Source: an uncultured Flavobacteriaceae bacterium (lineage in GTDB: Bacteria > Bacteroidota > Bacteroidia > Flavobacteriales > Flavobacteriaceae). From it: a DNA stretch of 64,000 nt. The stretch spans positions 62,001 to 126,000 of the forward strand of contig CANLVG010000010.1 of NCBI GenBank assembly GCA_947494565.1. The letters are read 5' to 3'. Both the position numbers and the translations under genes were made by a program. Below the pieces are notes generated by a model. That model had not been told where the DNA came from. It made no database searches and was given only the letters and a program-made list of their open reading frames with translations. Of this stretch, positions 28,940-44,232 are shown one piece after another (position 1 is the first letter of the stretch; each line of letters begins with the position of its first letter).

Positions 28940-29119
28940 CTAATTGTCGTCGGTGGCATCGTCAATTTCATCTTTAATTTCCTCTGCTCCTTCTTCAATA
29001 CCTTCCCCGACCTCTTCAATTCCGTCTTCAATTTTCTCTCCGGTGGTCTTTTCCCGGCAACTGGAAGCTGCTATGATCATAACAATTGCGAATAGGAACA
29101 TGTATAGTGATTTTTTCAT
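28940..29119 (-). CDS. Small acidic lipoprotein, 59 residues
   Basis: ATG 29119 to TAG 28940 encodes a lipoprotein signal (MKKSLYMFLFAIVMIIAASSC, Cys21) and a highly acidic mature part (EKIEDGIEEVGEGIEEGAEE, then DEIDDATDDN) with heptad-like glutamates, probably a short helix. Similar Glu/Asp-rich mini-lipoproteins occur next to stress genes in flavobacteria. It follows the DUF1328 gene by 49 nt and is probably in the same transcript. Function unknown. Confidence 0.75.
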   Translation of the reverse strand: MKKSLYMFLFAIVMIIAASSCREKTTGEKIEDGIEEVGEGIEEGAEEIKDEIDDATDDN

Positions 29120-29168: not shown

Positions 29169-29330
29169 TTATATTCTTTTTCTTCCGGTAATCAAGGATA
29201 TGATAAAAAGTACAATAAAAATGAAGAATAAGATTTTTGCGATACTAGCAGCACCAGCTGCGATTCCTCCGAATCCGAAAACTCCCGCGATCAGTGCTAA
29301 AATGATAAAAGTAATTGTCCAACGTAACAT
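29169..29330 (-). CDS. DUF1328 (YtjA-like) membrane protein
   Basis: ATG 29330 to TAA 29169 encodes 53 residues with two membrane helices and the DUF1328 pattern: [38 protein letters not shown], ending TGRKRI. Members are small inner-membrane proteins often induced by stress. Upstream lies the two-box element at 29391-29431 that is repeated word for word at 39705-39745 in front of another small gene. Confidence 0.85.
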
Positions 29331-29390: not shown

Positions 29391-29431
29391 TACAAAAATC
29401 GTGATACGGTATAGTTCTGTTTAACGGTATC
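29391..29431 (-). promoter_or_regulatory. Stress-island two-box promoter S1 (DUF1328)
   Basis: On the minus strand GATACCGTTAA (29431-29421), 20 nt, then GATTTTTGTA (29400-29391). Both boxes and the spacer length are identical to those at 39705-39745. The second box resembles the Bacteroidetes -7 element; the first takes the place of the normal TTTG. A second TTTGAGTTAAG motif lies just upstream (29451-29441), its GTTAA 21 bp from the first. Confidence 0.7.
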
Positions 29432-29589
29432 AATTGAATTCTTAACTCAAATGATAATACGATTCAATTAATTGAAAACCAACACTCTATATTCGATATT
29501 TTTTATTGAACTTAACTTGGAAAACATGTTTCTTACTTGCTGGTATCATGTTCAAAATAGATTACCTTTAGTTACTTAATTACTGTTTT

Positions 29590-30633
29590 ATGAAAACCAA
29601 GATTGAGGTTAAAGATCTAGATGTTCAAGATGTAGTTCGAGACATTGCCAAAGATTTAGGGATATCGTATGAGTCCGATAACAACGAAGTATGTCTTGAC
29701 ATTCCTGAAACTCTTGGTACGGGCTATATAAAAGCCGTTTCTTTTGATAGCGGTATGGGTACCATTGAAATGGATTTCAGGTTGAATAAAGAAGTTCGCC
29801 TAGAGATGAACGAATCTTCAGTTCAACCTTTGAAGATTATATTTAACAGGGAATCTACGATCAGACATGAATTCAGGGGGAAGAACGAAATCAATGAGAT
29901 AAAACAATTGGAAAGTGCTATATTATCAGGTAATCATAAGCATGAGAATGTGTTGATACTACCGGCCAATGAACCGATTTGCATCTTTAGCCTAGAAATC
30001 AATAGGAAATTATTCGAGGAAAAGATCGAGGGCTTCCTCTCCGAAATGAACAATGACCTAGAGGCCCTTTTCAGAGATGTTAACGGTGTAAATCTCTTTT
30101 ATTATAATGGGCATTATACATTAGATATTGCCCAATGCATTGAAGAATCTATTGAATGTGAGCTTACCGGTTTTACCCGATCCGTCTTTCTAGAAGGAAA
30201 AAGCTATGAAATCTTGGCGCATCACTTACGCCAATATGTGGATGACCTCACCGATCCCGATAAAAGAAAAATTTTAAGGCAAGCTACTATAAGTAAAATT
30301 CGTGAGGCCGCCACCATTATTGAAACCGAGCTAGAAAATATGGATAATATCATTGCATTAGCTCGAAGAGTAGGGCTGAATCAAAAAACACTGCAAAACG
30401 GATTTAAACACCTGTATGACAGTTCGGTAAACCAATATATCAGAAATTCTAGAATTGAACTAGCAAAAAAGTTAATGGAAACGACGGATTTGAATATAAC
30501 CGAAATCACTTATAAAATCGGAATTAACTCTAGAAGTTACTTTTCAAAGCTATTTAAGCAGCGCTATGCTATGTCACCTAAGCAATATGTACAACAGGTA
30601 CGAGATAAATCGGGAGAAGTAAAAACCGCTTAA
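29590..30633 (+). CDS. AraC-family regulator, stress-island paralogue 1
   Basis: A 347-residue protein with a C-terminal AraC-type double helix-turn-helix (about 240-340: SKIREAATIIETELENMDNI, ALARRVGLNQKTLQNGFKHL, LNITEITYKIGINSRSYFSKLF, MSPKQYVQQ). The N-terminal 220 residues are a sensor domain shared with the paralogues at 30785, 32750 and 36867, with an SFDSGMGTIEMDF start motif. No ligand is known. It stands alone, 259 bp after the divergent DUF1328 gene, so it may control that neighbour. Confidence 0.88.
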   Translation: MKTKIEVKDLDVQDVVRDIAKDLGISYESDNNEVCLDIPETLGTGYIKAVSFDSGMGTIEMDFRLNKEVRLEMNESSVQPLKIIFNRESTIRHEFRGKNEINEIKQLESAILSGNHKHENVLILPANEPICIFSLEINRKLFEEKIEGFLSEMNNDLEALFRDVNGVNLFYYNGHYTLDIAQCIEESIECELTGFTRSVFLEGKSYEILAHHLRQYVDDLTDPDKRKILRQATISKIREAATIIETELENMDNIIALARRVGLNQKTLQNGFKHLYDSSVNQYIRNSRIELAKKLMETTDLNITEITYKIGINSRSYFSKLFKQRYAMSPKQYVQQVRDKSGEVKTA

Positions 30634-30706
30634 TTCATACATAGTGAACTTTCGTTAACAAAATATTTCATCTGATAATGCACCCATTTGTGTTATTTTA
30701 AGTTTC

Positions 30707-30747
30707 AATACTGTTAATCTTAAAATAACGATAGGGTCAACTTTGCA
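30707..30747 (+). promoter_or_regulatory. Stress-island two-box promoter S2 (AraC paralogue 2)
   Basis: AATACTGTTAA (30707-30717), exactly 20 nt, then CAACTTTGCA (30738-30747). The first box matches 9 of 11 positions of S1/S8 and the second keeps A..TTTG. The AraC start codon is 37 nt downstream. Confidence 0.6.
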
Positions 30748-30784
30748 CTACAAAAACCATATTGTAGTAAGGAGGTTGCCCCCC

Positions 30785-31807
30785 ATGAGAGAAATTCAAA
30801 TTACCAGTATAAAAGACGAAATAATTCTAGAACAACTTCATCTTTGTTTAGAAGGTACTTTAAACGAAAGTTGGGGTGAACGGACCCTTACTTTTGACAA
30901 TTCCATTGGTAAGGGAGTTGTAAGAAGTATTTCTTTCGATTGGGGCGTTTCACTCTTAGACTGCGATGTAGAATTTTATGAAGATGTCAAGATTATATTT
31001 AAGACATCCAGTGTTTCCCCTATAGAGTTTATCTTTATTTCTAAAGGTTCTTTTCAGTATAGTGAAGATAATACGGAAGAGTTTATCGACTTAGAACAGT
31101 ATCAGAATATCATTATTGCTCCAAAACGCTATTCAAAAAAGACGTTTGTGTTTCCTCCGCATGAGGAAATAAAGGTCAACTTTATTCGTATTCTGAAAAA
31201 GGAATATTTAAAAAAGAAAAACAATAATATCACTCATTTGAATGACCTTATGTTGTCCATCTTTAATGATGAACAAGCTCAAACACCCTTTAAACATAAA
31301 GGTAATTACAGCTTAAAAATCGCAGATCAGGTCAAGGCATTGAACTCTGTTTATGATAGTGGAGTTATAAGAACATTATCTCTTGAAGGTCGATTATATC
31401 TTATTTTGGCCATGCAATTAATGGAGCATCATAACTTCGAAAATGACTTGGCCTTGCCAGAATCCTTATCAAAAAGTGATATTAAGAAAATACATCAATT
31501 ATCAGAATATATAGTTGATAACATATCTGACCCTATTTCTGTCCGTAGTTTAGCCGATAGCGCAGGCCTTAGCCCTAAAAAATTACAGTTGGGCTTTAAC
31601 GTACTTTATTCTAAATCGGTTAATGAATATGTAAGGCAATTGAAGTTAGAGATTTCCCGTGACTACTTGAAGAATACGGATTTATCCGTTTCGGAGATTG
31701 TTTATGCCATAGGGATAAAGAGTAGAAGTTATTTTTCAAAGATTTTTTTCGAGGCATATGGTATCCTTCCAACGGATTACAGGAAGCAACTTGCCAAGAA
31801 AAGTTGA
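30785..31807 (+). CDS. AraC-family regulator, stress-island paralogue 2
   Basis: A 340-residue regulator with the shared sensor domain (RSISFDWGVSLLDCDVEFYED) and a C-terminal AraC domain (SVRSLADSAGLSPKKLQLGF, LSVSEIVYAIGIKSRSYFSKIFFEAYG). I choose ATG 30785 over the in-frame TTG at 30743, since a strong AAGGAGG (30769-30775) lies 9 nt upstream, unusual in this AT-rich genome, and the TTG is part of the predicted -7 box. Convergent with the SRAP-like gene, 4 nt apart. Confidence 0.9.
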   Translation: MREIQITSIKDEIILEQLHLCLEGTLNESWGERTLTFDNSIGKGVVRSISFDWGVSLLDCDVEFYEDVKIIFKTSSVSPIEFIFISKGSFQYSEDNTEEFIDLEQYQNIIIAPKRYSKKTFVFPPHEEIKVNFIRILKKEYLKKKNNNITHLNDLMLSIFNDEQAQTPFKHKGNYSLKIADQVKALNSVYDSGVIRTLSLEGRLYLILAMQLMEHHNFENDLALPESLSKSDIKKIHQLSEYIVDNISDPISVRSLADSAGLSPKKLQLGFNVLYSKSVNEYVRQLKLEISRDYLKNTDLSVSEIVYAIGIKSRSYFSKIFFEAYGILPTDYRKQLAKKS

Positions 31808-31811
31808 TCGT

Positions 31812-32516
31812 TCATTCATCAGTTGGCAAGTCTTCATATTCGTAGCGTTCTAGCATACTATCATAGGAAATATTTTGACCAAAAATTTCTTTGGCTATTG
31901 GGTCGGCGTGAAGCTTCTGTTCACTAGGTTTGGATAAAAAATACTGTATTTCTTCTAGAGGTACGGTTTGGTCGAGCCAAAAGTCCATCAGGTTTTCTGT
32001 AATGGCTATTGGCATACAATCAACCAGGTTTTGAAATTTTCGGATGTAGCGACTAGACCTACCTACTACTAACGAAAATGTGATAAAGCCATCTTCTAGA
32101 ACATTATACATTCCTGCTAAACAAAACGGGCCACCAGATTTCAGCCCGATATGATAGGGATAGGTAACTCCATCTTTCAAAAAAGTAGTAAAGTACCCAG
32201 TGACCAAGATCAGACATCTTCTTTTCTCCAAGGACTCTTTGTACCATAAATCACCTTGAATATGCCTTTCATCAATAGTAAGGGTATTGGTCAGACTTTG
32301 GAATTTTGCCCAATCATCTTTATAAAATTCTGGTAAAATACCCCAAATACCCAAATTTATACTACTTGGCTCGCTAGAAGTGATAATGGGAAGATTGGAC
32401 TCATTATGTCCGTTTAATACCACTTCTGGCCGATACAGTTTGGGGTGTTTGAAGAATGCTCCGAACGAACGTTCCAATCTTTCCCTATCTGAGGTATTTG
32501 AAAGTTTATAGTACAT
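31812..32516 (-). CDS. SRAP/YedK-family protein lacking catalytic residues
   Basis: SRAP proteins (YedK, HMCES) cross-link abasic sites through Cys2, helped by an Asn, a Glu and a His. This 234-residue protein keeps the fold's landmarks: WGILPEFYKDD, RRCLILVTGYFTTF, YPYHIGLKSGGPFCLAGMYN and MPIAI. At position 2 it has Tyr (MYYKLS), the usual NARSET is replaced by TLTIDERHI, the Glu of GFFEW by Thr, and the His before RMP by Gln. I start at ATG 32516, which aligns with the family; the frame extends 13 codons upstream to 32555. Probably a non-catalytic relative, or a decaying gene. Confidence 0.75.
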   Translation of the reverse strand: MYYKLSNTSDRERLERSFGAFFKHPKLYRPEVVLNGHNESNLPIITSSEPSSINLGIWGILPEFYKDDWAKFQSLTNTLTIDERHIQGDLWYKESLEKRRCLILVTGYFTTFLKDGVTYPYHIGLKSGGPFCLAGMYNVLEDGFITFSLVVGRSSRYIRKFQNLVDCMPIAITENLMDFWLDQTVPLEEIQYFLSKPSEQKLHADPIAKEIFGQNISYDSMLERYEYEDLPTDE

Positions 32517-32641
32517 ATAGTAATGGAAATATACCGCAAGTAACAAAAAGGGCATTCAAAGCATTGTTTCATTTGAAATAAAATGTAACTCATTACAAAT
32601 TAATTGCTTAGCCTTTTCTTGCAATAGCCTGTAAATGACCC

Positions 32642-32681
32642 GATAACGTTAAACCTTTCTTTTAAATCGGTAAGCTTTAGG
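32642..32681 (+). promoter_or_regulatory. Possible two-box promoter S3 (AraC paralogue 3)
   Basis: GATAACGTTAA (32642-32652) matches 10 of 11 positions of the S1/S8 first box. The best second box, AAGCTTTAG (from 32672), is weaker and needs a 19-nt spacer. It lies about 70 nt before the AraC start. Confidence 0.4.
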
Positions 32682-32749
32682 GATAGATCCAAGTAATTTT
32701 GATGGTCGATGATTGAGTTCAAAATAAAGGCTTTCATTAAAAAAGGAGT

Positions 32750-33784
32750 ATGCTGACGAGAAAAAAAATAGCGATGCGAGAACTGAAAGAACTTCAACGT
32801 TTTCTAAAAGGGGAAGTTCTTAACGAAAACGGAGTACAGGTCTTAAAAATCCATCATTCTATTGGTGAAGGTAAGGTGCAGTGTATCTGTTTCGATGATG
32901 GTCTTATTGCGATGGAATTCGATATACTAATAAGAGAGAACAAAACGATTCATTTGAATGATGAAAAACAAAGCATGGCTTATTTCCTGTATTGTTTGCA
33001 GGGAAATTGTTTACACCAGTTCAAGGAAGATGCGATAATTACCAAATTGGAAGAATTACAAACCGCTGTTGTTAGCAATGATTCAGATTTACAAAGTAGA
33101 CTCTTGATTCGAAAAGATGAACGGCTTATTTTAAACCTTATTCGTATCGATACAGAGAAATACATGAAAAAAATTAAAAGTGATTATGAGGGGTTTGATG
33201 CGAAGACCATCTCTTTATTAGACTCTTTTAAGGCGAATCAGGGCTACTTTCATTTGGGTAAAATCAATCTTGAAATAGGAGAACTGATTAAAATGCTTGA
33301 AAAGGCGAAATATGTAGATGATCTATCTACCCTAATGCAGTTCGAAGGTATTTGTCATTTAATTCTCGCCAAGCAGATTAGGCAATTCAAGTTTGAAATG
33401 GAATTCGGCAAAACTTCAGCTTCAACGCTGTTGAAGAAAGAACTCAAAGAGATTAGTGAGATCAGCGATTTTATTAGAGAATCCCCAGAGTTACAACACT
33501 CAATAGCAACCTTATGTACCAAATCAGGACTTTCAGCTTCAAAACTTCAACAAGGTTTTCGCTTTTTAAATAACATGACCGTCGGTGAGTTTATTCGTGA
33601 AACTCGATTGAAAATGGCCGAAGAGCTTTTGCGAACTTCCGAAATGAATGTTTCAGAAGTTGTGTATTCTATAGGGTTTACGAGTCGAAGCTATTTCTGT
33701 AAAATATTTAAGGCAAAATACCGCTGTAATCCTAAACAGTACAAACAAAATTTAGTTTTAACCGTTGTAAAAGAGAAAGCATAA
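32750..33784 (+). CDS. AraC-family regulator, stress-island paralogue 3
   Basis: A 344-residue regulator with the sensor domain (CICFDDGLIAMEFDILIREN, YFLYCLQGNCLHQF) and an AraC DNA-binding end (HSIATLCTKSGLSASKLQQG, MNVSEVVYSIGFTSRSYFCKIFKAKY). Two starts are possible: ATG 32750, which has AAGGAG only one base before it, or ATG 32774 (MRELKELQ), which aligns better with paralogue 2. It is followed by a clean terminator and faces the PA2169-type gene. The target genes are unknown. Confidence 0.88.
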   Translation: MLTRKKIAMRELKELQRFLKGEVLNENGVQVLKIHHSIGEGKVQCICFDDGLIAMEFDILIRENKTIHLNDEKQSMAYFLYCLQGNCLHQFKEDAIITKLEELQTAVVSNDSDLQSRLLIRKDERLILNLIRIDTEKYMKKIKSDYEGFDAKTISLLDSFKANQGYFHLGKINLEIGELIKMLEKAKYVDDLSTLMQFEGICHLILAKQIRQFKFEMEFGKTSASTLLKKELKEISEISDFIRESPELQHSIATLCTKSGLSASKLQQGFRFLNNMTVGEFIRETRLKMAEELLRTSEMNVSEVVYSIGFTSRSYFCKIFKAKYRCNPKQYKQNLVLTVVKEKA

Positions 33785-33812
33785 AAAAAGGGAAGCCATA
33801 GCTTCCCTTTTT
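33785..33812. terminator. Bidirectional terminator after AraC paralogue 3
   Basis: Perfect 12-bp stem AAAAAGGGAAGC (33785-33796) and GCTTCCCTTTTT (33801-33812) with a 4-nt loop, between two convergent genes. Confidence 0.92.
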
Positions 33813-33833
33813 GTTCTTCCCAATTCTTTCGAA

Positions 33834-34283
33834 TCAGTGAATATCCTCTAGGCGCTTTACTGTTGAGAGGGCACTTTGGATACTGCTCTTTTGATTTTTC
33901 AGAATCATAGCGGTGCTTGGTGGTAATGTATGTTCTTTCAATACATCATTATATTCATCTAGTGATGCTTTTTCACCTCTAATTGCTTCCTCCAACATCG
34001 CCTCATCGTTATCTGAAGAGAATAGCGCTTTGACATCCATCCAAGTGCGATGCGCCTTACTTGTAAGACTGTCTCCCTTATCCACTTCTTGACCAAAAGA
34101 CTTGATTTCGTTTTTCAATTCATGTCCGAAATCATATCGCTGTTGCGCTTTTTTTTCAAAATATGATTTCAAATAGGTGTGTTCGGTATTTGCCGCTGCT
34201 TTTTTGAAGCCCTTTTCCGCATCATACGTTTTCTCTAAAAGGCCATTCAATTTTTCTCCTACTGCTTCTGAATATGTACTCAT
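33834..34283 (-). CDS. PA2169-family four-helix-bundle protein (DUF2383)
   Basis: A 149-residue soluble, helical protein: SEAVGEKLNGLLEKTYDAEK, AANTEHTYLKSYFEKKAQQR, then a second half with DEAMLEEAIRGEKASLDEYN and LKNQKSSIQSALSTVKRLED. This matches the ferritin-like DUF2383/PA2169 family, which is frequently found with stress genes. No clear di-metal ligand set can be assigned by eye. It starts 70 nt after the stop of the small membrane protein at 34354-34632 and is probably co-transcribed with it. Confidence 0.85.
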   Translation of the reverse strand: MSTYSEAVGEKLNGLLEKTYDAEKGFKKAAANTEHTYLKSYFEKKAQQRYDFGHELKNEIKSFGQEVDKGDSLTSKAHRTWMDVKALFSSDNDEAMLEEAIRGEKASLDEYNDVLKEHTLPPSTAMILKNQKSSIQSALSTVKRLEDIH

Positions 34284-34353
34284 GTCTAAAAATTTTAAAT
34301 GAACAGTAATTTGTTTTATGGATGCTTACTGTTTTACATCCCAAAAGCAAGAA

Positions 34354-34632
34354 TTAACTTTGGTAAAATCTATTTCTGTACTTGAAACTTTCAATTTTGT
34401 CTTTCAATCCACTCACAGAAACACCTTCCACAGGTACGCTATCATCTTCCATTATCGAATTATGGATTTTGATTAAAGGTGAAGCGCGCTTGTCTAAATC
34501 GGTGATTTGCATCTGTGGCGCGTTAAACTCGTCTACCCCTCTTTGATTTACAAAAGATGCTACAATGGTAAGAGCAATTCCAAGACCGAAAGCCAAAACG
34601 CTAAATGCAATAACCTCAATTTCAGTAAACAT
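34354..34632 (-). CDS. Small membrane protein, 92 residues
   Basis: A 92-residue protein with one N-terminal membrane helix (IEVIAFSVLAFGLGIALTIV) and a soluble tail (DLDKRASPLIKIHNSIMEDD, KDKIESFKYRNRFYQS). No family is recognised. It is preceded by a two-box element (34651-34691) of the stress-island type, and the PA2169-family gene follows it. Confidence 0.65.
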   Translation of the reverse strand: MFTEIEVIAFSVLAFGLGIALTIVASFVNQRGVDEFNAPQMQITDLDKRASPLIKIHNSIMEDDSVPVEGVSVSGLKDKIESFKYRNRFYQS

Positions 34633-34650
34633 AATTCTTGTTTTGTTGAG

Positions 34651-34691
34651 AGCAAAGTTATCGGTGGTTAGGGGAACGGTTTTGTTCGAAT
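34651..34691 (-). promoter_or_regulatory. Stress-island two-box promoter S4
   Basis: On the minus strand ATTCGAACAAA (34691-34681), exactly 20 nt, then TAACTTTGCT (34660-34651). The second box is a good TAnnTTTG -7 element; the first resembles the dps box (ATATGAGCAAA) at 8 of 11 positions. Confidence 0.55.
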
Positions 34692-35021
34692 GCTTAAATT
34701 ATTGACTCATATCCTATAGCACACAATTTTGACGGGATTGGGCTAATACTAACACCTTGCATGAATCGTCTAAAATAAAAATGGTTCCCGTGCAAAGAGG
34801 ACACAGGAACCATTTAACCAACCAAACTAGACTTTATTTACACTATTCCACTTATCTGTCAGGATTAATAGATAACGTACGGCGTCAAAATTAGTGGCCA
34901 TAGCATTTAGAAATGTGCTGTATACAATTTATTCTTAATCTGTTCAAGAGACTTGAACAATTTCTAAGCTGGCACAAAATGTAAAATCCTAATACAATGT
35001 ATATGTGTCAATATCAATTGC
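34692..35021. other. Intergenic region with an orphan minus-strand terminator
   Basis: No established gene. A 10-bp hairpin (AAATGGTTCC 34779-34788, GGAACCATTT 34806-34815) is followed on the minus strand by TTTATTTTAG, a plausible terminator with no known gene upstream. A 24-codon minus-strand frame (34901-34827, starting MATNFDAVRYLLILTDKW) ends 12 nt before it. A perfect TTCAAG-AGA-CTTGAA hairpin lies at 34942-34958. This may be a small RNA or micro-gene divergent from dps. Confidence 0.35.
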
Positions 35022-35062
35022 ATATGAGCAAAAGTACTTTCCTACTTGACTATAACTTTGTA
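35022..35062 (+). promoter_or_regulatory. Stress-island two-box promoter S5 (dps)
   Basis: ATATGAGCAAA (35022-35032), exactly 20 nt, then TAACTTTGTA (35053-35062). The first box matches the YtxH box at 8 of 11 positions, and the second is a perfect TAnnTTTG. The dps start codon is 57 nt downstream. Confidence 0.6.
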
Positions 35063-35119
35063 GTGTTAGGAAGAGAGAATGTGAAAGTCACGTTCCACAT
35101 GAATTAAAAAAATAAGAAG

Positions 35120-35629
35120 ATGAATTACTTGAATATCAACGACAAAAAATTAGTACCCGTAGTTTCCGAGTTGAACTTACTACTGGCAGATTATAGTGTT
35201 TATTATCAAAAACTGAGAAGCTATCATTGGAATGTCGTGGGAAAAAATTTCTTCGATCTACATAATAAGTTCGAGGAGCTCTACAATGATGCAAGAATAA
35301 AGATAGATGAAGTTGCTGAGCGAATTCTAACCTTAAGATATCATCCAGTAAGTAATTTTAAGAAATACCTCGAAATGTCTTCGATTAAAGAAGCATCCCC
35401 ATTTAAAGCAGATACCGAAATGGTGAGTGACATTCTATCAGACCATCAAAAACTTCTGATGCAATTGAAAACAACACTTGATAAAGCTGATCAGGCAGGT
35501 GATGAAGGTACGGTGGACATGCTAGGAGCTTATATTGGGGAATTAGAAAAAGCTAGTTGGATGCTTGATGCTTTCAATCAAGATACAAGTGACCAGTTAA
35601 AGGTCAGCGATATGGAAAAGGTATCATAA
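35120..35629 (+). CDS. dps: Dps ferritin-like DNA-protecting protein
   Basis: Dps dodecamers store iron, consume peroxide and coat DNA in stress and stationary phase. The 169-residue protein has the ferroxidase ligands at the dimer interface, His36 (SYHWNVVG), His48 (FFDLHNKFEEL) and Glu64 in KIDEVAERI, and the typical four helices. There is no long Lys-rich tail, so DNA binding may be weak. It lies upstream of mscS with a 49-bp gap, so the two may share a transcript. Confidence 0.93.
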   Translation: MNYLNINDKKLVPVVSELNLLLADYSVYYQKLRSYHWNVVGKNFFDLHNKFEELYNDARIKIDEVAERILTLRYHPVSNFKKYLEMSSIKEASPFKADTEMVSDILSDHQKLLMQLKTTLDKADQAGDEGTVDMLGAYIGELEKASWMLDAFNQDTSDQLKVSDMEKVS

Positions 35630-35678
35630 ACATACTGTAAACCAAAACAGGCGTCATTACTAATTAATTAATTCAAAG

Positions 35679-36578
35679 ATGAATCAAGAAATACAAAAAT
35701 CTTTTGCCGATATATATGAAAAACTACAAGGTTGGGTGACCAGTCTAATTGAAAACTTGCCGAACCTATTAGTGGCCATAATAGTTATGGTCGTTTCATA
35801 CTACGCAGCTCGTTTCATTAGTAAATGGGTAGTCGTCTTAGCTTCAAAAAGAATTCCACAACAAAGTATATCACAGTTAATAGGGCGAATATCCGCAATT
35901 GCCGTGGTTTTAGTAGGACTATTTCTTGCACTTGGTGCGTTGGATTTGAGCAAAACTTTAAACACCCTCTTAGCTGGAGCCGGAATTTCAGGTTTGGTTA
36001 TAGGTCTTGCTTTACAAGGTACACTTTCAAATCTTTTATCTGGTATCATACTTTCATTTCGAAAGAAAATACGATTGGGTAACTGGATAGAAACAACGGG
36101 TTACGCGGGCGAAGTAGTAGACATTAATCTAAACAGTCTTGTTTTAAAGGAATTCGATAATAGCTTGGTCATCATCCCCAACAAAACAATTATTGAAAAC
36201 CCATTAAAAAATTACTCTCTTACCAACAAAATGAGAGTAGCTATTGAATGTGGAGTTGGTTACGAGTCTGATTTGGAAGAAGTTGAAAAAATTGTAAAAG
36301 AAGCCATAGGCAGCATATACCATCAAAACAACGGTACGGAAATCGAAGTTTATTACACTAGTTTCGGAGATAGCGCTATCAACTTTGTATGTCGTTATTG
36401 GGTTGATGCTACGGACGCGAAAAATCGACTTGATGCTAAGAGTGAGGGGATGATAGCCATCAAAAAGGCCTTTAATCGCAAGGACATAAACATACCTTTC
36501 CCTATCAGGACGATTGAGTTTAACAGCCAACTCGACTTGAATACCAAAAGGGTAAATGATACTGTGCTGCAGAACTAG
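35679..36578 (+). CDS. mscS: Small-conductance mechanosensitive channel (MscS family)
   Basis: A 299-residue inner-membrane channel with three membrane spans; the pore helix is GAGISGLVIGLALQGTLSNLLSGIILSF, with the Ala/Gly pattern of MscS TM3. It is followed by the beta domain (KKIRLGNWIETTGYAGEVVDIN, VIIPNKTIIENPLKNYS) and the C-terminal alpha/beta domain. Length matches E. coli MscS. Releases solutes on hypo-osmotic shock. Follows dps and is ended by a hairpin near 36712-36739, consistent with a dps-mscS unit. Confidence 0.93.
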   Translation: MNQEIQKSFADIYEKLQGWVTSLIENLPNLLVAIIVMVVSYYAARFISKWVVVLASKRIPQQSISQLIGRISAIAVVLVGLFLALGALDLSKTLNTLLAGAGISGLVIGLALQGTLSNLLSGIILSFRKKIRLGNWIETTGYAGEVVDINLNSLVLKEFDNSLVIIPNKTIIENPLKNYSLTNKMRVAIECGVGYESDLEEVEKIVKEAIGSIYHQNNGTEIEVYYTSFGDSAINFVCRYWVDATDAKNRLDAKSEGMIAIKKAFNRKDINIPFPIRTIEFNSQLDLNTKRVNDTVLQN

Positions 36579-36711
36579 GCAAAGGAAAGATTGATTATCT
36601 AAACCTTAGGAACAACTAGAATTATCGAAAGACTATCTAAGACCTTTAAATCATTTCAAGTACCCTTAGGTTAGATGTAGTCAACTAATACATTTCGATT
36701 TAGTTGATGAT

Positions 36712-36739
36712 AAAAAGCCTCTGTACGGAGGTTTTTTTG
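36712..36739 (+). terminator. Terminator after mscS
   Basis: Stem AAGCCTC/GAGGTTT with one G-T pair and loop TGTACG, followed by seven T residues. It is 134 nt after the mscS stop codon. The rest of 36579-36866 shows no gene and should hold the promoter of AraC paralogue 4. Confidence 0.75.
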
Positions 36740-36866
36740 TGCTCAAATAGAAATAAAAATAACTTGATTATAGGTTTTCAGGCCATTTACCGTAGTTCTA
36801 TGTAAAAGCTATCACTAAAAAAACTATTTTGCTGACTACAATGTTTATATTTTATCTTGTTTCAGC

Positions 36867-37910
36867 ATGACCGAAATCATAGTAGATGCTCAAAGTACTG
36901 AAGGAACCGTTCGACAAATTCAACGCGTAATCGGAGGTAAGATACAAGAGCGCTGGGGAGAATATACTTTGGATGTCAACAGTCATCTTGCCAAAGGAAA
37001 CATTCGCTTTATCACCTTCGATTGGGGGGTTAGCCTCTTGGAATATGATATTACTTTTTTTGATGAGATTTGTCTTGTCATGGATGCATCGGAATACAAT
37101 CCCATACATTTTGCCTATTGCTTAGAAGGAAACTGTGGGCATCGGTTTGGGTATCAATCAGAAAAACAAATCAAAACGCTAGAGCAATTCCAATCGGTGA
37201 TAATTACAAGTAGAGATGGAGGGTATAACTATGGCTATTTCCCAAAGAATATCAAGTTGGCCATTAACGTTATTCAAATTACCCGAAAGCAATTCTTAAA
37301 AAAGAGATTAAACAACGTTGATGAATTAAACCGAAAGCTTTATGAGGTCTTTCTCGACACGGATCATGACAATGCCTTTGCATATTTTGGTGCGTATAAT
37401 CTCAAACTGGCTGATAAAATAGGGGCGCTGCGAAAAGTAAGAACCAAAGGAATGATTCGCATGATGAAAATCGAAGGGCTGGTTTATGAAATTTTATCAA
37501 TGCATATTCTACAGCATGATAAGGCTGTAAATAATAAAATGCCTTCCACTAGTCTACTTCGGTCTGAATTGAAAATCGTACGTGGGCTAGCAAAAAAAAT
37601 CGTAAAAGACCCATCAAAAGAGTATTCGTTAGATATGCTGGCCCTGCAGTCCGGTCTTTCTCAGGCAAAGCTTCAAGAAGGGTTTAAGCTATTGTATACC
37701 AGAACAGTAACCGAATACATTAGACATGTACGCCTAGAGGCAGCACGTGACTATATTCGCACTACCGATATGAATATTTCGCAAATTGTATATACCATAG
37801 GTTTTAGCAGCAGGAGTTATTTTTCTAAAATTTTCAAAAATAAATACGGGATTAGCCCAAGTGAGTTTCAAAATAATTCGCTACAAACCATAGAGGAAAT
37901 GTACCCCTAA
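36867..37910 (+). CDS. AraC-family regulator, stress-island paralogue 4
   Basis: A 347-residue regulator, most like paralogue 2 by eye: RFITFDWGVSLLEYDITFFDE in the sensor part, FAYCLEGNCGHRFGY shared with paralogue 3, and a C-terminal AraC domain (LDMLALQSGLSQAKLQEGFK, MNISQIVYTIGFSSRSYFSKIFKNKYG). Followed by a strong terminator. Four such paralogues within 8 kb interleaved with stress genes suggest a local regulatory circuit. I found no good two-box element upstream of this copy. Confidence 0.9.
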   Translation: MTEIIVDAQSTEGTVRQIQRVIGGKIQERWGEYTLDVNSHLAKGNIRFITFDWGVSLLEYDITFFDEICLVMDASEYNPIHFAYCLEGNCGHRFGYQSEKQIKTLEQFQSVIITSRDGGYNYGYFPKNIKLAINVIQITRKQFLKKRLNNVDELNRKLYEVFLDTDHDNAFAYFGAYNLKLADKIGALRKVRTKGMIRMMKIEGLVYEILSMHILQHDKAVNNKMPSTSLLRSELKIVRGLAKKIVKDPSKEYSLDMLALQSGLSQAKLQEGFKLLYTRTVTEYIRHVRLEAARDYIRTTDMNISQIVYTIGFSSRSYFSKIFKNKYGISPSEFQNNSLQTIEEMYP

Positions 37911-37945
37911 AAAAATGATGCATTCCCATCGAATGCATCATTTTT
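37911..37945. terminator. Bidirectional terminator after AraC paralogue 4
   Basis: Perfect 15-bp stem AAAAATGATGCATTC (37911-37925) and GAATGCATCATTTTT (37931-37945) with a 5-nt loop, between convergent genes. Confidence 0.93.
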
Positions 37946-37969
37946 CAATCATCAACCAAATCAACCAAC

Positions 37970-38173
37970 TTATTTTCTGAACAGTTTCCGAATTAAATAA
38001 AGAATCCCGTATTTTTTCCCCGCAGTTAGAGCAGTGTTCATCCAGTTGTAAGGCCGTAAATCTTCCTCGATTTCGTGTTTAATTCCTTTCATCTCCTCCC
38101 AGGCAATCTGACGTTCTAAATTGAGTCGCTTCAGATCTTTATTAATATCCTCTATTGTGGTATAAGATTTCAT
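37970..38173 (-). CDS. Small helical protein of the YtxH operon
   Basis: A 67-residue protein beginning MKSYTTIEDINKDLKRLNLE and ending in a basic, slightly hydrophobic tail (KKYGILYLIRKLFRK). The first half is a charged helix, and the end could lie on the membrane. It resembles small DUF6327-like proteins that follow holin-like genes in flavobacteria, but the assignment is tentative. It is the last gene of the YtxH-holin operon, directly adjoining the holin-like gene. Confidence 0.65.
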   Translation of the reverse strand: MKSYTTIEDINKDLKRLNLERQIAWEEMKGIKHEIEEDLRPYNWMNTALTAGKKYGILYLIRKLFRK

Positions 38174-38521
38174 TTAATCGAAATATTGTTTAGCCGTTTT
38201 TTTAATGATTAGGGTATCTATTTTAGTCCTTAATTTATAAACCAAAGTGCTCACAAGAAAAATCACCGCTGCAACTATTAAACAAGCATGGACCATATTA
38301 CCCAAAAAATTGCCCAGCGCAAGAATTCCAGCGACTAGGACGAGGGTAAGCCCTATTAGAGCTAGGCTCCCAACAATCGCAATCTTACAGAACATACCAA
38401 TGATTGTAGTGAGTTGCTGAAATACTTTTAGTTTATAGTATTCTTGCGATTTTTGAATATACTGCTCGCCAATCTCTACAGCTTTGTGAGAAGTTTGATT
38501 TAAGGAATCGAATACACCCAT
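38174..38521 (-). CDS. Phage-holin-family (DUF1469-like) membrane protein
   Basis: A 115-residue protein with a charged N-terminal helix (QTSHKAVEIGEQYIQKSQEY) and two membrane helices (IAIVGSLALIGLTLVLVAGI and MVHACLIVAAVIFLVSTLVY), the layout of the DUF1469/Holin_3 family. It overlaps the YtxH stop codon by one base (TAATG), implying coupled translation. Despite the name these chromosomal members are usually stress or envelope proteins, and no phage genes surround it. Confidence 0.82.
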   Translation of the reverse strand: MGVFDSLNQTSHKAVEIGEQYIQKSQEYYKLKVFQQLTTIIGMFCKIAIVGSLALIGLTLVLVAGILALGNFLGNMVHACLIVAAVIFLVSTLVYKLRTKIDTLIIKKTAKQYFD

Positions 38522-38853
38522 TATGATGTCTTTTGAAGCTTTTTGTTTTTGGCTTTCAACTGTGCTAGTTTATTCTCCAATGTGGAGATAACATCTTCTG
38601 TTTTATAACTAACATCTGATACTAAACCTTCCATTCTACTTTCTAAGGTATCGGATTCTGAAGCTATTTTTGTTGCGATACGATCTTTTAGGTCGATTGC
38701 GCTATCCGTTAAATTCTCTTTAGTTGCCAAGGCCTGATCGGCAATTCTTTTTCGTGTATTCTCACCCTTATCCGGTGCGAATAAAACACCCAATGCCGCT
38801 CCTATAGCAGAGCCTGCCAAAATTCCTAAAACTGTATTTCCTGTAGTACTCAT
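38521..38853 (-). CDS. YtxH-domain stress protein
   Basis: About 110 residues from ATG 38853 (MSTTGNTVLGILAGSAIGAA), a Gly/Ala-rich membrane helix with the YtxH end LGVLFAPDKGENTRKRI, then a long charged coiled coil (ATKENLTDSAIDLKDRI to ENKLAQLKAKNKKLQ). The frame extends 12 codons upstream to 38889, but the shorter start gives the standard family N-terminus. First gene of a three-gene operon. Its promoter region holds two-box element S6. Confidence 0.88.
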   Translation of the reverse strand: MSTTGNTVLGILAGSAIGAALGVLFAPDKGENTRKRIADQALATKENLTDSAIDLKDRIATKIASESDTLESRMEGLVSDVSYKTEDVISTLENKLAQLKAKNKKLQKTS

Positions 38854-38899
38854 ATTGTTTGTTTTTAATTTTATGATAGTGACTCTCACTATTTGTTAA

Positions 38900-38940
38900 C
38901 ACAAAGTTCAATAAAACTCATATGTATCCTTAACTCAAAT
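38900..38940 (-). promoter_or_regulatory. Stress-island two-box promoter S6 (YtxH operon)
   Basis: On the minus strand ATTTGAGTTAA (38940-38930), exactly 20 nt, then GAACTTTGTG (38909-38900). The TTTGAGTTAAG core is also found at 29441-29451 and 39623-39633 on the same strand. The remainder of 38941-39193 shows no gene. Confidence 0.6.
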
Positions 38941-39193
38941 ACGGTAATGTTTGACTGTAATACTAGCGGTGGAAAAGGTCAAGATTCTTAGTTAAAGAGC
39001 TAATTTCCATTCCCTTCTTCTGATAATTGTATGATAAATCACCAGAAAATGAAGTAAGGCGAGGAAAATGCAAAACTGGTAAAAGAAGAAAATCGAAAAA
39101 CAATTAAAAGGAAGGTCTAACCCCGTATTCTAAATCTTCATCACAATAAATTAGCCCCCTAGTATATGTATTCAAGGGGTCTTTGAATTCAAA

Positions 39194-39580
39194 CTATTCT
39201 TTTACTAGCTCTAAGGTCTGAACATTATTTTCTCCATCTGTAGACTTCCACTTCTGAAACTTAGAGCTATTTTCCAGATAAATCCAAGTCTTGTTAATTT
39301 CACTATCGTCGCCTTCAATAGTGATATAATTTTCGGTGCTTGACCACGTAAAAGGAGCAGCGTCGGATTGTTCTATGCCCAATACAGTATAATCTAATTT
39401 TTTCTCACCCGTATTATTCTTTTTAAAAGTCATGGTACCGATATTGCTCAAGGTTGTTCCTTGTTCACCCGGCGTAACCCTTTCATATTTTTGAACCGTC
39501 CAGGTACCCACCAATCTGTGAGCGCAAGAGGTCAAAAATATTGCGATTACTAAAGCAAGGGATGCATATTTCATTTTCAT
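39194..39580 (-). CDS. Lipocalin-like lipoprotein
   Basis: A 128-residue protein with a lipoprotein signal (LVIAIFLTSC, Cys19) and a lipocalin-like start (HRLVGTWTVQKYERV), followed by alternating strands (GTMTFKKNNTGEKKLDY, FTWSSTENYITIEGDD, KTWIYLENSSKFQKWKS). Such small lipocalin_4-type proteins are common in Bacteroidetes; the ligand is unknown. Element S7 lies 14 nt upstream of the start codon, so it is probably part of the island regulon. Confidence 0.8.
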   Translation of the reverse strand: MKMKYASLALVIAIFLTSCAHRLVGTWTVQKYERVTPGEQGTTLSNIGTMTFKKNNTGEKKLDYTVLGIEQSDAAPFTWSSTENYITIEGDDSEINKTWIYLENSSKFQKWKSTDGENNVQTLELVKE

Positions 39581-39593
39581 ATAATTTAGTTTT

Positions 39594-39634
39594 CCCTAAA
39601 ATACCTACGATATCGCTGTAGGCTTAACTCAAAA
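39594..39634 (-). promoter_or_regulatory. Stress-island two-box promoter S7 (lipocalin-like gene)
   Basis: On the minus strand TTTTGAGTTAA (39634-39624), exactly 20 nt, then TATTTTAGGG (39603-39594), a TAnnTTTG box with one mismatch. The leader to the start codon would be very short. Confidence 0.5.
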
Positions 39635-39704
39635 GCCTTTTTTATTAGTCCATTCCAAAGTCCACTCTGCGAAAGCCTTTGAGATATGGGTCAAAATTTA
39701 TCGT

Positions 39705-39745
39705 GATACCGTTAACTCTACCATCCCTATTATCGGATTTTTGTA
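39705..39745 (+). promoter_or_regulatory. Stress-island two-box promoter S8 (56-residue protein)
   Basis: GATACCGTTAA (39705-39715), exactly 20 nt, then GATTTTTGTA (39736-39745), identical in both boxes and spacing to S1 ten kilobases away on the other strand. The start codon is 22 nt downstream. Confidence 0.7.
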
Positions 39746-39767: not shown

Positions 39768-39938
39768 ATGATGAACAATAAGGAAAGAGAGTTAAAGAAA
39801 GGTCATGAATCAGGTGACCAAGAAAAACTTAAGGAAATGAATACTAACAAGGCCTCAAGAGTCGAAGAATCTTCAACAGGAACGGCAAAAGACGAGGGAA
39901 CGCTAGGTAAAATGAACGGGGAAACAACCGAGAGGTAA
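39768..39938 (+). CDS. Small hydrophilic stress peptide, 56 residues
   Basis: ATG 39768 (or the next codon, 39771) to TAA 39938 encodes a very hydrophilic, charged protein with no hydrophobic core: MMNNKERELKKGHESGDQEK, then SRVEESSTGTAKDEGTLGKM. The composition (Lys, Glu, Gly, Thr, Asn) is that of an intrinsically disordered, KGG-like or hydrophilin-like stress protein, but no family is recognised with certainty. It follows the perfect two-box element S8. Confidence 0.65.
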   Translation: MMNNKERELKKGHESGDQEKLKEMNTNKASRVEESSTGTAKDEGTLGKMNGETTER

Positions 39939-42091: not shown

Positions 42092-42329
42092 TCACGCACA
42101 ATTTCCTTCAATGTATGGAATTGGAGGTCATACGGAGTGATTATGATATGAATGACCTATTTTAAGATAAGAACGACAGGATTGCTGTGTAGATTATTAA
42201 ATATATTGCTTTAAATTATATCGCCGACCCCTTTGAGTATTATCCAAACCCTTTTTTTGGATGGTCTGCTAGGGTAGCACTTAATTTCGCCGAATTTCAA
42301 AAGAGGCTCACCGTATCAAGAGACATCAA

Positions 42330-43115
42330 ATGAAAGTTCTAATAGTCGATGATGAAATGCTAGCTCGAAAAAGAATTCGCAAGATCTTTGCGGATAACGA
42401 GGGGATTGAACTCTTTGAGGCAAGTTCGGGCAGCCAGGCCGTTTCCATGATTCAGGCCGAACGGCCTGAAATCGTTTTTTTGGATATTAAGATGACCGAC
42501 TTTTCAGGATTTGAAGTACTCCAAAGGATAGAGCCATCTATAATGCCCCTCACCATATTTGTCACTGCCTATGATGACTATGCCATTGCGGCCTTCGAGA
42601 ACCAGGCGATAGACTATGTCTTAAAACCCTATAAAGAAAAGAGAGTATTGGATGCGCTCGATAGGGCCATAAAAAAAATAGAGACCGCACAAAAAAGTGA
42701 TTCGTACGATGCCATGTATACACGGTTCAATCAACTATTCGACCAGCTGCAAGACCTAAAAAGAAATGCAAAGCCCTTTCTAGAGAAAATTGTGCTCAAA
42801 GTCGGTAGAAAATATGTTTTCGCTTACACCGAAGACATTAAGTATATCACATCTTCGGCCTATTATGCCGAGCTATTCATGGCTGATGGTAAAAAATACA
42901 TCTATCGGACCTCCATGACCGCATTGATGGAACGACTCGACCCCGATAGCTTTATCAGACTAAACCGTTCAACCATTGTTCAGATTAAATGTATAGCGGA
43001 AGTAATTAGCGAAGGATATGGAGACTACTGCGTAGTCATGGTGGATGGTCAGAAATTCAATGTCTCCAAAAGTTATAAAACCACCTTTAAAAAGCAATTG
43101 ACCCTTGGAAAATAA
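42330..43115 (+). CDS. LytTR-family response regulator
   Basis: A 261-residue response regulator: receiver domain with DD at 7-8, phospho-acceptor Asp52 (VFLDIKMTDFSG), the Thr/Lys switch residues (FVTAYDD, VLKPYKEK), a charged linker, and a LytTR DNA-binding domain (about 160-260: EKIVLKVGRKYVFAYTEDIK, RLNRSTIVQIKCIAEVI). The kinase gene begins one base after its stop codon. A CCAAA/TTTGG dyad lies upstream at 42242-42262. Targets unknown. Confidence 0.93.
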   Translation: MKVLIVDDEMLARKRIRKIFADNEGIELFEASSGSQAVSMIQAERPEIVFLDIKMTDFSGFEVLQRIEPSIMPLTIFVTAYDDYAIAAFENQAIDYVLKPYKEKRVLDALDRAIKKIETAQKSDSYDAMYTRFNQLFDQLQDLKRNAKPFLEKIVLKVGRKYVFAYTEDIKYITSSAYYAELFMADGKKYIYRTSMTALMERLDPDSFIRLNRSTIVQIKCIAEVISEGYGDYCVVMVDGQKFNVSKSYKTTFKKQLTLGK

Positions 43116-43116
43116 C

Positions 43117-44232
43117 ATGAAGGAAAAGCCATATCAATTTCTTGACCCTAAGCTGTTCAGGGTGCTTTTGGTGTATTATTTGGTCGCCTATATCATCGAT
43201 TTTATAGGGACTATCCTCATTTATAATCAGAATGATGAATCCACCGTTATATTAGGCCACCTTGTCCTCCAGTACCTGATCCTTTTTGTTTGCAAGTTGA
43301 CCTATATCGTAGTTTCGCTATGGTTAACACGAAATTCATTTAAGAAAGGAACATTTCGTTTAGGGATTATTCCCATTCATTTGGCACTTGCAGCCCTACT
43401 TTCTTTTTACACTGCTTTTATCGGGATTTTGGTTGATATTGAATTGCTTTCAAGCCCGACAACCTTGACTGCCGAAAGTATTTACATACGTGGCTTAGGC
43501 GGGTTGAGTTTTAATTTCTTTATGTACTTTTCCATGATAGCTATCGTTTACGCCTATAACTATTTTCAGCGCAAAAAGACCGATGATTTAAGAACGTCAA
43601 CGTTGAAAGCAGAGCTTCTTGACGCCAAAATTCGAGCGTTACAGGCGCAGTTAAATCCGCATTTCCTTTTCAATTCCCTCAATGACATTTCATCACTGGT
43701 TGATGAGAACACAATCAAAGCACAGAATGCCATAGCCGACCTAAGCCAGCTACTGAGAAAAACATTGCATTTGAAGGATTCGAAATTAGTAACGTTGAAA
43801 GATGAGCTTCTTCTTTTAGATACTTATGCGAAAATGGAGAAATTGAGATATGATGATAAATGGGAGCTGATCAAATCAATTCCGCAAGAATTAAACGGCT
43901 GTCTAGTACCCCCTCTTCTTTTCCAACCTTTTTTGGAAAATACGATAAAACATGGTTTTTCAGAACAACATCAAAAGATTAGGGCCGTGTTATCTATACA
44001 GGAAAACAATGAGTATCTCGAAATAATGATCATCAACAATGGAATAGCCTTACCATCCGAATCACCCATCTTAGGGAATGGAATTGGTAATATCTTAGAG
44101 CGATTGGATTCTTTATTTCACGGGGATTTTGAATTTGATATCGGCAACGAGCATGTGAATAATGAACATTTTCATGGTCCTGTTGTTCGCATTCAGATTT
44201 TATTGCCTCTTTTAAAAAAGAACATGAATTGA
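43117..44232 (+). CDS. LytS-like sensor histidine kinase
   Basis: A 371-residue kinase with four N-terminal membrane helices (about 15-150), then a His_kinase (LytS) domain with the phospho-acceptor block ALQAQLNPHFLFNSLNDISS and an ATPase domain (VPPLLFQPFLENTIKHGFSE, NGIGNILERLDSLF). I start at ATG 43117, one base after the regulator's stop (TAACATG); the frame's earlier TTG at 43105 would overlap the regulator. There is no large extracytoplasmic sensor, so the signal is probably sensed within the membrane. Confidence 0.92.
   Translation: MKEKPYQFLDPKLFRVLLVYYLVAYIIDFIGTILIYNQNDESTVILGHLVLQYLILFVCKLTYIVVSLWLTRNSFKKGTFRLGIIPIHLALAALLSFYTAFIGILVDIELLSSPTTLTAESIYIRGLGGLSFNFFMYFSMIAIVYAYNYFQRKKTDDLRTSTLKAELLDAKIRALQAQLNPHFLFNSLNDISSLVDENTIKAQNAIADLSQLLRKTLHLKDSKLVTLKDELLLLDTYAKMEKLRYDDKWELIKSIPQELNGCLVPPLLFQPFLENTIKHGFSEQHQKIRAVLSIQENNEYLEIMIINNGIALPSESPILGNGIGNILERLDSLFHGDFEFDIGNEHVNNEHFHGPVVRIQILLPLLKKNMN

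Follow-up and report, generated by a model that had tools for sequence, protein, structure and literature searches.

Gene content of the cluster

The window, a stretch of 64,000 nucleotides from an uncultured Flavobacteriaceae bacterium, contains a 10-kb cluster in which four AraC-family paralogues lie among genes of stress-type function. The genes relevant to its regulation are the following.

28940-29119, minus: 59-aa lipoprotein, downstream of the DUF1328 gene on the same strand
29169-29330, minus: DUF1328 small membrane protein, predicted target (PF07043, E 5.8e-15)
29590-30633, plus: AraC1 paralogue (HTH_18); no operator upstream, best upstream score -6.7
30785-31807, plus: AraC2 paralogue, likely target (HTH_18; upstream score 21.6)
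32750-33784, plus: AraC3 paralogue, likely target (HTH_18; upstream score 22.4)
33834-34283, minus: DUF2383 gene, downstream of the 92-aa gene on the same strand (DUF2383, E 6.7e-36)
34354-34632, minus: 92-aa protein, predicted target; no Pfam match
35120-35629, plus: dps-type ferritin-like protein, predicted target (PF00210, E 2.7e-24; Dps models below cut-off)
35679-36578, plus: MscS-type channel, mscS (MS_channel_2nd, E 1.4e-19)
36867-37910, plus: AraC4, AraC-family regulator, proposed main activator (HTH_18, fold prediction, co-occurrence)
37970-38853, minus: ytxH (38521-38853) with 115-aa and 67-aa genes (PF12732, E 1e-17; gene order kept in relative loci L121-L124)
39768-39938, plus: 56-aa hydrophilic protein, predicted target (open reading frame; no Pfam match)

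AraC2 is taken to start at ATG 30785 rather than at TTG 30743, which falls within its promoter. Because only 50 nt separate the two genes, mscS is probably cotranscribed with dps, and ytxH and the 115-aa and 67-aa genes form a probable operon.

A probable tandem operator upstream of sigma-A -7 boxes

A first-pass annotation of this DNA reported two identical two-box sites, GATACCGTTAA-N20-GATTTTTGTA, in front of the DUF1328 and 56-aa genes. These are real: the copies at 29391-29431 (minus) and 39705-39745 (plus) agree with 0 mismatches, the arrangement appears in none of 100 shuffles, and a search tolerating up to three mismatches finds no further copy. The shared geometry is likewise borne out in front of AraC2, dps, ytxH and the 92-aa gene. 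In the window, GTTAA is followed by nAnnTTTG four times at N20, whereas any other gap between 14 and 26 is seen no more than once. The comparison drawn with the tRNA-Arg promoter (TTTG-N19-TATATTTG) is correct.

The element extends beyond the box pair, which captures only half of it. Box 1 belongs to a direct repeat with a 21-bp period, of which it forms the half nearer the promoter, and a second copy of the box begins exactly 21 bp upstream, at 29446, 34706 and 38955 on the minus strand and at 39690, 30692 (as GTTAT) and 35007 on the plus strand. The full layout is thus YAWWTGAGTYAA, then 21 bp on YAWWTGAGYYAA, and 20 bp further on the flavobacterial sigma-A -7 box (nAnnTTTG). An N16 gap between the halves fits five sites, whereas N12-15 and N17-20 fit none. 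The half-site consensus is TGAGTYAA/TGAGYYAA, in which WWTGA recurs in both halves at positions not used for selection. The predicted sites, each an operator with its -7 box, are as follows; E values are those of the genome model.

29393-29454, minus: before DUF1328, GTTAA-N16-GTTAA-N20-GATTTTTG; first of the two identical sites; E 2.7e-7
30684-30745, plus: before AraC2, GTTAT-N16-GTTAA-N20-CAACTTTG; orthologous sites in L121 and L122; weak, E 1.83
32640-32701, plus: before AraC3, GTTAA-N16-GGTAA-N20-TAATTTTG; orthologous site in L121
34653-34714, minus: before the 92-aa membrane protein, GTCAA-N16-ACAAA-N20-TAACTTTG; E 2.3e-6; in training set
34999-35060, plus: before dps, GTCAA-N16-GCAAA-N20-TAACTTTG; the genome's best match, E 2.4e-8; in training set
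38902-38963, minus: before the ytxH operon, GTCAA-N16-GTTAA-N20-GAACTTTG; E 2.6e-6; in training set
39682-39743, plus: before the 56-aa hydrophilic protein; second of the two identical sites; E 3.8e-5; in training set

The AraC3 site corresponds to a "weaker case" placed earlier at 32642, whose register was incorrect: the distal half is GTTAA at 32648, and GGTAA at 32669 is the proximal one.

Direct repeats with a period of about 21 bp are the arrangement of AraC-type class II tandem operators. The proximal half lies over the -33/-35 region of a sigma-A promoter, as judged from its position relative to nAnnTTTG and from the placement of the Flavobacterium psychrophilum sigma-A box, TAnnTTTG, at -12 to -5 in PMC9723704. 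A tandem 21-bp repeat followed by a sigma-A -7 box has the architecture of an AraC/XylS-type activator operator overlapping -33 rather than that of an alternative-sigma promoter.

Number and location of sites in the genome

Whole-genome pattern counts give no excess of these sites. The triple pattern with at most one mismatch occurs 5 times vs 6 for a backwards-pattern control, and with at most two mismatches 40 vs 103 times; the plain two-box pattern gives 230 vs 496 matches. Across 199 genomes, the triple pattern with at most one mismatch shows no excess either, the control being as high or higher in most cases. Raw counts therefore carry no signal by number, so that trained models and conserved loci are needed. 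What exceeds chance is not the raw number of sites but their location and conservation: all 5 sites with at most one mismatch fall inside one 10-kb stretch of a 5.39-Mb genome. Likewise, in a genome-model scan that scored 150 of 2826 candidates, the matches listed with E<0.01 all lie inside this cluster, and the matrix finds 0 sites both in 166 kb elsewhere in the genome and in 78 kb surrounding other AraC genes. With no strong site (E<0.01) listed outside the cluster, the regulon appears to be local in this genome, and a genome-wide regulon is unsupported.

Conservation in relatives

The first-pass annotation had also proposed a matrix scan of this genome and its relatives. Although strong matches here are restricted to the cluster, related genera share the element. 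With a matrix built from five loci, this cluster and those of four close relatives, 163 sites scoring at least 18 are found in 39 of 40 held-out loci, vs 0 in reversed sequence and 0-8 when the distal block is shifted; these loci are not independent, as Aquimarina contributes 17 of the 40 and 85 of the sites, the remaining 78 being spread over eight named genera and one MAG. Genera were assigned by hand, nine being named in all; L170 is a 5.9-kb piece, and L130, L131, L132 and L152 were left out as duplicates of contigs already included, which they match in length. Spacing in the held-out loci is strongly constrained, with 118 half-site pairs at 21 bp vs 17-47 at each other spacing from 6 to 49, 87 vs 11-68 for a second pair of boxes, and 66 -7 boxes at exactly N20 vs 0-3 at each other distance. 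Of 27 non-redundant held-out sites, 21 have T at the first position of the -7 box. Orthologous promoters are conserved as well, the DUF1328 operator being present also at DUF1328 of L121, L123, L124 and further relative loci.

A survey of targets, training loci counted in, covers 221 sites scoring at least 15, of which 132 could be labelled by best BLAST match (E<=0.01) and 89 could not; no fewer than three labels are questionable (two "dps" with 31-36% identity and one "p115" that is DUF5670 by Pfam), and several of the open reading frames are implausibly short. The commonest label in relatives is ytxH, and dps is a target in many of their loci. To the genes found downstream here (dps, ytxH, DUF1328, DUF2383 and mscS) relatives add aldehyde dehydrogenase, hemerythrin, hibernation-factor and DJ-1/PfpI genes. 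Sites appear also to reach unlinked genes in some relatives. The 20 stretches inspected were hand-picked from strong and moderate matches (E up to about 0.003). The kinds of downstream gene, here and in nine named genera, fit the "stress regulon" of the first-pass annotation.

AraC4 and its association with the operator

AraC4 carries a C-terminal double-HTH DNA-binding domain (HTH_18, E 4.5e-20; HTH_AraC, E 2e-14), and its PDB matches include SoxS, AraC and MarA, with SoxS the best by sequence (E 5.8e-16). A Pfam search of the N-terminal part finds no domain; a cupin-like sensing domain, a beta barrel with linker helices, appears there in the predicted model only (pLDDT 84.6, pTM 0.63). The top matches to the predicted fold are Rns, ToxT and CsvR at low TM-scores of 0.26-0.40, and cupin proteins match too. 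In four close relatives the protein is 83-86% identical. Among 246 genomes sampled from the order, an unspecified mix of families, 7 match AraC4 at E<=1e-90, all in the family of the window. With AraC2 as query, the best match in 15 genomes of other families has E 4e-14.

AraC4-like genes and the sites co-occur. Of 19 genomes that contain a strong site, 18 have an AraC4-like gene, vs 38 of the 180 remaining ones. Strong here means E<=1e-4, a cut set after the list was seen; at E<=0.1, weak matches are present in 163 of the 199 genomes. The association is partly built in because loci were found via AraC4 and the R1 model was trained on AraC4-linked sites. This search scored 27 candidates per genome under strict filters. 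Of the 35 strong sites in the family, 26 have an AraC4-like gene no more than 15 kb away; the other 9 include 2 in G132, a genome whose best match to AraC4 (E 2e-26, in the DNA-binding part) falls short of the E<=1e-40 used to call an AraC4-like gene. Conversely, among 20 genomes whose AraC4 homologue is close (E<=1e-120), 6 lack a site at E<=1e-4.

Autoregulation of AraC4 was considered and rejected: no site lies upstream of the gene in the window, and 1 of 41 relative loci scored high (L145, 20.1; next 8.0).

Proposed mechanism and competing explanations

Each box is probably the half nearer the promoter of a tandem operator for an AraC/XylS-type activator, and that activator is most likely AraC4. 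Two protomers would occupy the two direct repeats (YAWWTGAGYYAA), which at 21 bp, or two helical turns, would place them on the same face of the DNA. The proximal protomer would cover about -44 to -33, replacing the absent TTTG -33 element, and, in class II activation, would recruit RNA polymerase with sigma-A to the -7 box (nAnnTTTG) lying 20 bp downstream. A signal would in this way turn on dps-mscS, the ytxH operon and the DUF1328, 92-aa and 56-aa genes together. A cascade may follow if AraC2 and AraC3 are switched on as well; the weakness of their sites in the genome model, where the AraC3 operator is absent among the matches listed at E<=10, counts against the explanation.

The same kind of operator might instead serve another AraC-type protein, whether AraC1-3, several paralogues sharing sites, or a protein encoded elsewhere among the 46 AraC-like matches in this genome. 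The four paralogues at the locus favor such a reading, as does variation in the proximal half, GATACCGTTAA at DUF1328 and the 56-aa gene vs ATGAGCAAA at dps, which would allow for different partners. It is nonetheless unlikely, as sites persist in loci where AraC4 is the sole AraC-family match, as it is, in one copy, in 34 of 44. LytTR regulators likewise bind direct repeats about 21 bp apart, their half-site consensus being [TA][AC][CA]GTTN[AG][TG]. A LytTR-type response regulator is encoded at about 42.3-43.1 kb of the window, and LytTR genes occur in all 16 genomes searched, among the matches listed. Use of the repeat by such a protein, or by another direct-repeat binder, is however improbable: TGAGYYAA/TGAGTYAA mismatches the LytTR consensus, tblastn finds a relative of the window's LytTR protein in 1 of 44 other loci (L157), and in the protein clusters found in at least 8 of the 44, inspected by eye, the AraC family is the only DNA-binding regulator recognized.

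An alternative sigma factor with box 1 as its -35 element, the other option raised in the first-pass annotation beside an activator overlapping -33, would account for the position of the box at -33, its departure from TTTG and the fixed N20. The -7 box is nevertheless of the sigma-A type, with no distinct -10/-7 element, whereas the alternative motifs of F. psychrophilum given in PMC9723704 differ from it, and a sigma promoter offers no role for the conserved second half-site 21 bp upstream; the activator option is supported and the sigma factor is very improbable. Chance resemblance or base composition, with which raw counts no higher than the backwards control would agree, is scarcely credible given the 10-kb clustering and is contradicted by the fixed-spacing conservation in held-out loci.

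Relation to known regulatory systems

The predicted AraC4 operator shares features with several well studied systems. At Pm, a 6-bp gap between the XylS repeats gives a 21-bp period. PMC5481539 describes two 15-bp direct repeats in tandem, the proximal one adjoining RNA polymerase, so that tandem direct repeats, a proximal repeat beside the polymerase and an AraC-type DNA-binding domain are common to both. XylS, by contrast, acts at one promoter with an aromatic inducer, whereas the half-site here is different, the genes form a stress-type cluster and the -7 box is that of Bacteroidota sigma-A. The AggR site, according to PMC6392122, lies 21-22 bp upstream of -10, overlaps -35 and is thought to contact sigma domain 4, much as the site here lies 20 bp upstream of the -7 box. 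AggR, however, uses a single site and has other target genes, unlike the conserved tandem pair found here. SoxS, MarA and Rob, which act as monomers on single sites, resemble AraC4 in their AraC-family DNA-binding domain and stress-type genes; AraC4 differs in its predicted additional cupin-like domain and tandem sites. The RpoS and sigma-B regulons overlap with the present system in their kinds of target, namely dps, YtxH, DJ-1/PfpI, a pyridoxamine-oxidase-like protein and a hibernation factor, although here a DNA-binding activator of sigma-A promoters is proposed and, in this genome, only one cluster.

The best reading of the system is a new stress regulon of the AraC type in Flavobacteriaceae. 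A literature search, with most subscription papers outside its coverage, found no description of the operator or regulon and no general-stress regulator of flavobacteria. Much more tentatively, AraC4 might be the master regulator of a general stress response in this family, acting at sigma-A promoters through a cupin-like sensing domain in the role of RpoS, sigma-B or EcfG. Its regulon would then vary in extent, from one 10-kb cluster, as in this genome, to scattered genes with roles in DNA protection, ribosome hibernation, the envelope and detoxification, in some relatives with added regulators (AraC2, AraC3, an ECF sigma factor and a PAS histidine kinase). One protein, an operator of fixed geometry and a conserved target list mean that the proposal can be tested directly in genera that grow in culture, among them Cellulophaga and Aquimarina. 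It would also show how an AraC activator substitutes for the -33 element in a Bacteroidota promoter, and the operator model is itself searchable.

Minor sites in the cluster

Two weaker matches complete the cluster.

38977-39028, plus: weak site divergent from ytxH (E 0.17; matrix score 16.7)
39598-39647, minus: possible partial site before the lipocalin-like gene (E 5.5)

The lipocalin-like site, included in the first-pass annotation at 39634 (minus), is without a convincing distal half, comes last among the 16 matches listed in the genome scan and is not borne out by the full model. The site divergent from ytxH, with an 8-codon open reading frame and no convincing one behind it, is probably a remnant.

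Operator architecture and promoter placement

The element is a real, conserved operator of the AraC type with a stress-type regulon in the Flavobacteriaceae, its binding being predicted from sequence. The exact pair of two-box sites described in the first-pass annotation is present at 29431-29391 (minus) and 39705-39745 (plus); allowing up to three mismatches adds no match, and none occurs in 100 shuffles. The N20 spacing also holds, with GTTAA followed by nAnnTTTG found four times in the window at N20; no other spacing between 14 and 26 gives more than one match. Absent from that annotation is a second copy of the box, revealed by promoter alignment exactly 21 bp upstream of the first. With the second spacing held fixed, GTYAA-like-N16-GTTAA-like-N20-nAnnTTT occurs at five sites in the window (DUF1328, the 56-aa gene, AraC2, dps and ytxH), and spacings of N12-15 and N17-20 between the halves give no fitting site. 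The site of the 92-aa gene also matches once placed in the correct register. At AraC3 a site indeed exists, but the box originally taken as box 1 is the distal half, with the proximal half and the -7 box following; no convincing distal half was seen at the proposed lipocalin site, which ranks last of the 16 genome-scan matches listed (E 5.5).

Features of the window that bear on the reading of the cluster:
30743-30785: TTG start of AraC2 in the ORF listing, inside the promoter; the likely start is the ATG at 30785
36867-37910, plus: AraC4, proposed main activator
38977-39028: weak divergent operator behind ytxH, without a clear gene (relatives often have an aldehyde dehydrogenase of 453 aa or a ~58-aa gene as divergent partner)
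42285-43600: LytTR response regulator, then a membrane-protein ORF (probable sensor), near the cluster and not conserved with it
63268-63451, minus: two similar 33-base stretches ending GAAGTTTG, ~150 bp apart, possibly a repeat

If the sigma-A -7 box lies at -12 to -5, as in an excerpt of PMC9723704, the two halves fall at about -65 to -54 (distal) and about -44 to -33 (proximal), a placement like those that excerpts of PMC5481539 and PMC6392122 give for XylS at Pm and for AggR, respectively. The operator promoters are without a TTTG -33 element, which would fit dependence on an activator; the tRNA-Arg promoter, by contrast, reads TTTG-N19-TATATTTG, as first described. Because AraC2 and AraC3 carry a site upstream, a regulatory cascade is likely; none is found in the window upstream of AraC1 or AraC4. 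The kind of control is already known, the operator and regulon being new within that kind, and no description of this operator and regulon was found in the literature searched.

Conservation in relative loci

AraC4 orthologues (set A1) led to 44 relative loci, in genera including Cellulophaga, Aquimarina, Tenacibaculum, Lutibacter, Maribacter, Croceitalea, Winogradskyella, Gelidibacter and Kriegella; with four dropped as repeats of close relatives, 40 loci (801 kb) were held out. In these, the simple pair of boxes is found at 21 bp 118 times, with all 40 loci represented, whereas every other spacing between 6 and 49 gives 17-47; a second box pair gives 87 versus 11-68. The -7 box stands at exactly N20 in 66 cases, at two other distances in 3 and 1, and at none of the remaining distances between 8 and 39. 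The matrix scan of relatives that had been proposed at first reading, trained on 19 sites from the window and four close relatives, finds 163 sites scoring at least 18 in 39 of the 40 held-out loci and none in the same sequence reversed; with the distal block displaced by -6 to +3, 0-8 sites remain. The same matrix finds no site in 166 kb elsewhere in this genome or in 78 kb around other AraC genes. Among 27 non-redundant held-out sites picked by the plain boxes alone, positions outside the selection are biased: both W positions of the distal half are A or T in 27/27, T, G and A stand ahead of the proximal box in 20, 25 and 23 sites, and the -7 box opens with T in 21.

Distribution in the genome

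The recognisable regulon is local in this genome. At up to two mismatches the triple pattern gives 40 matches in 5.39 Mb versus 103 in the backwards control, so that match number alone is uninformative; at up to one mismatch, all five matches lie inside the one 10-kb cluster. Model R1, a sequence-only model built from 36 sites (the window's own among them), was run on this genome with 150 of 2826 first-look candidates scored. Among the matches listed, the best five (E<=3.8e-5) and the sixth (E 0.17) are in the cluster, and the seventh (E 0.26) is the first outside it. The AraC2 site scores E 1.83, and the AraC3 site is absent among the 16 matches listed.

The candidate binding protein

All four paralogues have AraC-type DNA-binding domains. 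AraC4 is the sole AraC-family match in 34 of the 44 loci (four such matches occur in 5, two in 4 and none in 1, a fragment), and operator sites are kept in the AraC4-only loci. By eye, no other DNA-binding regulator was recognised in protein clusters of at least 8 of the 44 loci, window included. A ~200-aa protein, nucleotide-cyclase-related by eye (L137:8039-8638), is encoded in 17 of the 44, a possible link to a signal. The predicted AraC4 model (pLDDT 84.6, pTM 0.63) combines a beta barrel with linker helices and two HTH; over the full length it comes closest to the structures of Rns, ToxT and CsvR (E about 1e-10, low TM-scores), and in the DNA-binding domain to those of SoxS, MarA and AraC.

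An alternative sigma factor reading the boxes, an option of the first-pass annotation, conflicts with the sigma-A -7 box and leaves the distal half without explanation. A LytTR regulator would use a direct repeat of the same period, but its half-site differs from that found here, and just 1 of the 44 loci has a gene related to the window's LytTR gene. The main rival would be an AraC protein different from AraC4 as the binder. Across 199 family genomes, 19 have a site at E<=1e-4, and an AraC4-like gene (E<=1e-40) is present in 18 of these versus 38 of the 180 others (Fisher 1.9e-10), with R1 trained on AraC4-linked sites and the E<=1e-4 cut picked after the list was seen; of 35 such strong sites, 26, including five in the window, are no more than 15 kb from an AraC4-like gene. 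Counting against the link to AraC4, some R1 match at E<=0.1 occurs in 163 of the 199 genomes, strong sites are missing from 6 of the 20 genomes that have a close homologue of AraC4, and genome G132 is an exception with strong sites yet no AraC4-like gene at E<=1e-40 (best E 2e-26).

Target genes

Target labels by best BLAST match for 221 sites scoring at least 15, training loci included
ytxH 33
dps 31
DUF1328 23
DUF2383 16
SRAP 9
AraC2 6
AraC3 5
92-aa gene 4
mscS 2
AraC4, p115 (115-aa) and p56 (56-aa) 1 each
without label 89

Pfam assigns some unlabelled targets to aldehyde dehydrogenase, hemerythrin, a Hva1_TUDOR protein and a DUF2807 protein, and gives no match for 4 of the 10 proteins scanned. 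The stress regulon first proposed stands as to its stress-type target genes, here and in relatives, but not as to its spread through this genome, where it is confined to the cluster; a bolder reading would make the operator system a general stress switch of Flavobacteriaceae.

In 20 stretches fetched around other sites (18 of them >15 kb from an AraC4-like gene or on a different contig, two of these in G132), the site lies ahead of an ORF in every case. By sequence the targets include dps and mscS, divergent (L259), DUF1328 (L252, L258), DUF2383 (L265) and ytxH (L266); by Pfam, a pyridoxamine-oxidase-like protein, a PepSY-like protein, APP1 phosphatase, PAS histidine kinase, S30AE hibernation factor, FMN oxidoreductase, DUF326, DJ-1/PfpI, an ECF sigma factor and a CHRD protein. 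The Pfam scan, which left out L256, L260, L261 and L264, gave no match for the L257 target. In G132, the genes behind strong sites encode a 58-aa product and an outer-membrane-type protein (L260, L261). In G097, the start of the ECF-type sigma factor gene (L268:1429-2024) is preceded at 14 bp by a strong operator, and in some relatives the regulon may thus lead into a sigma cascade.
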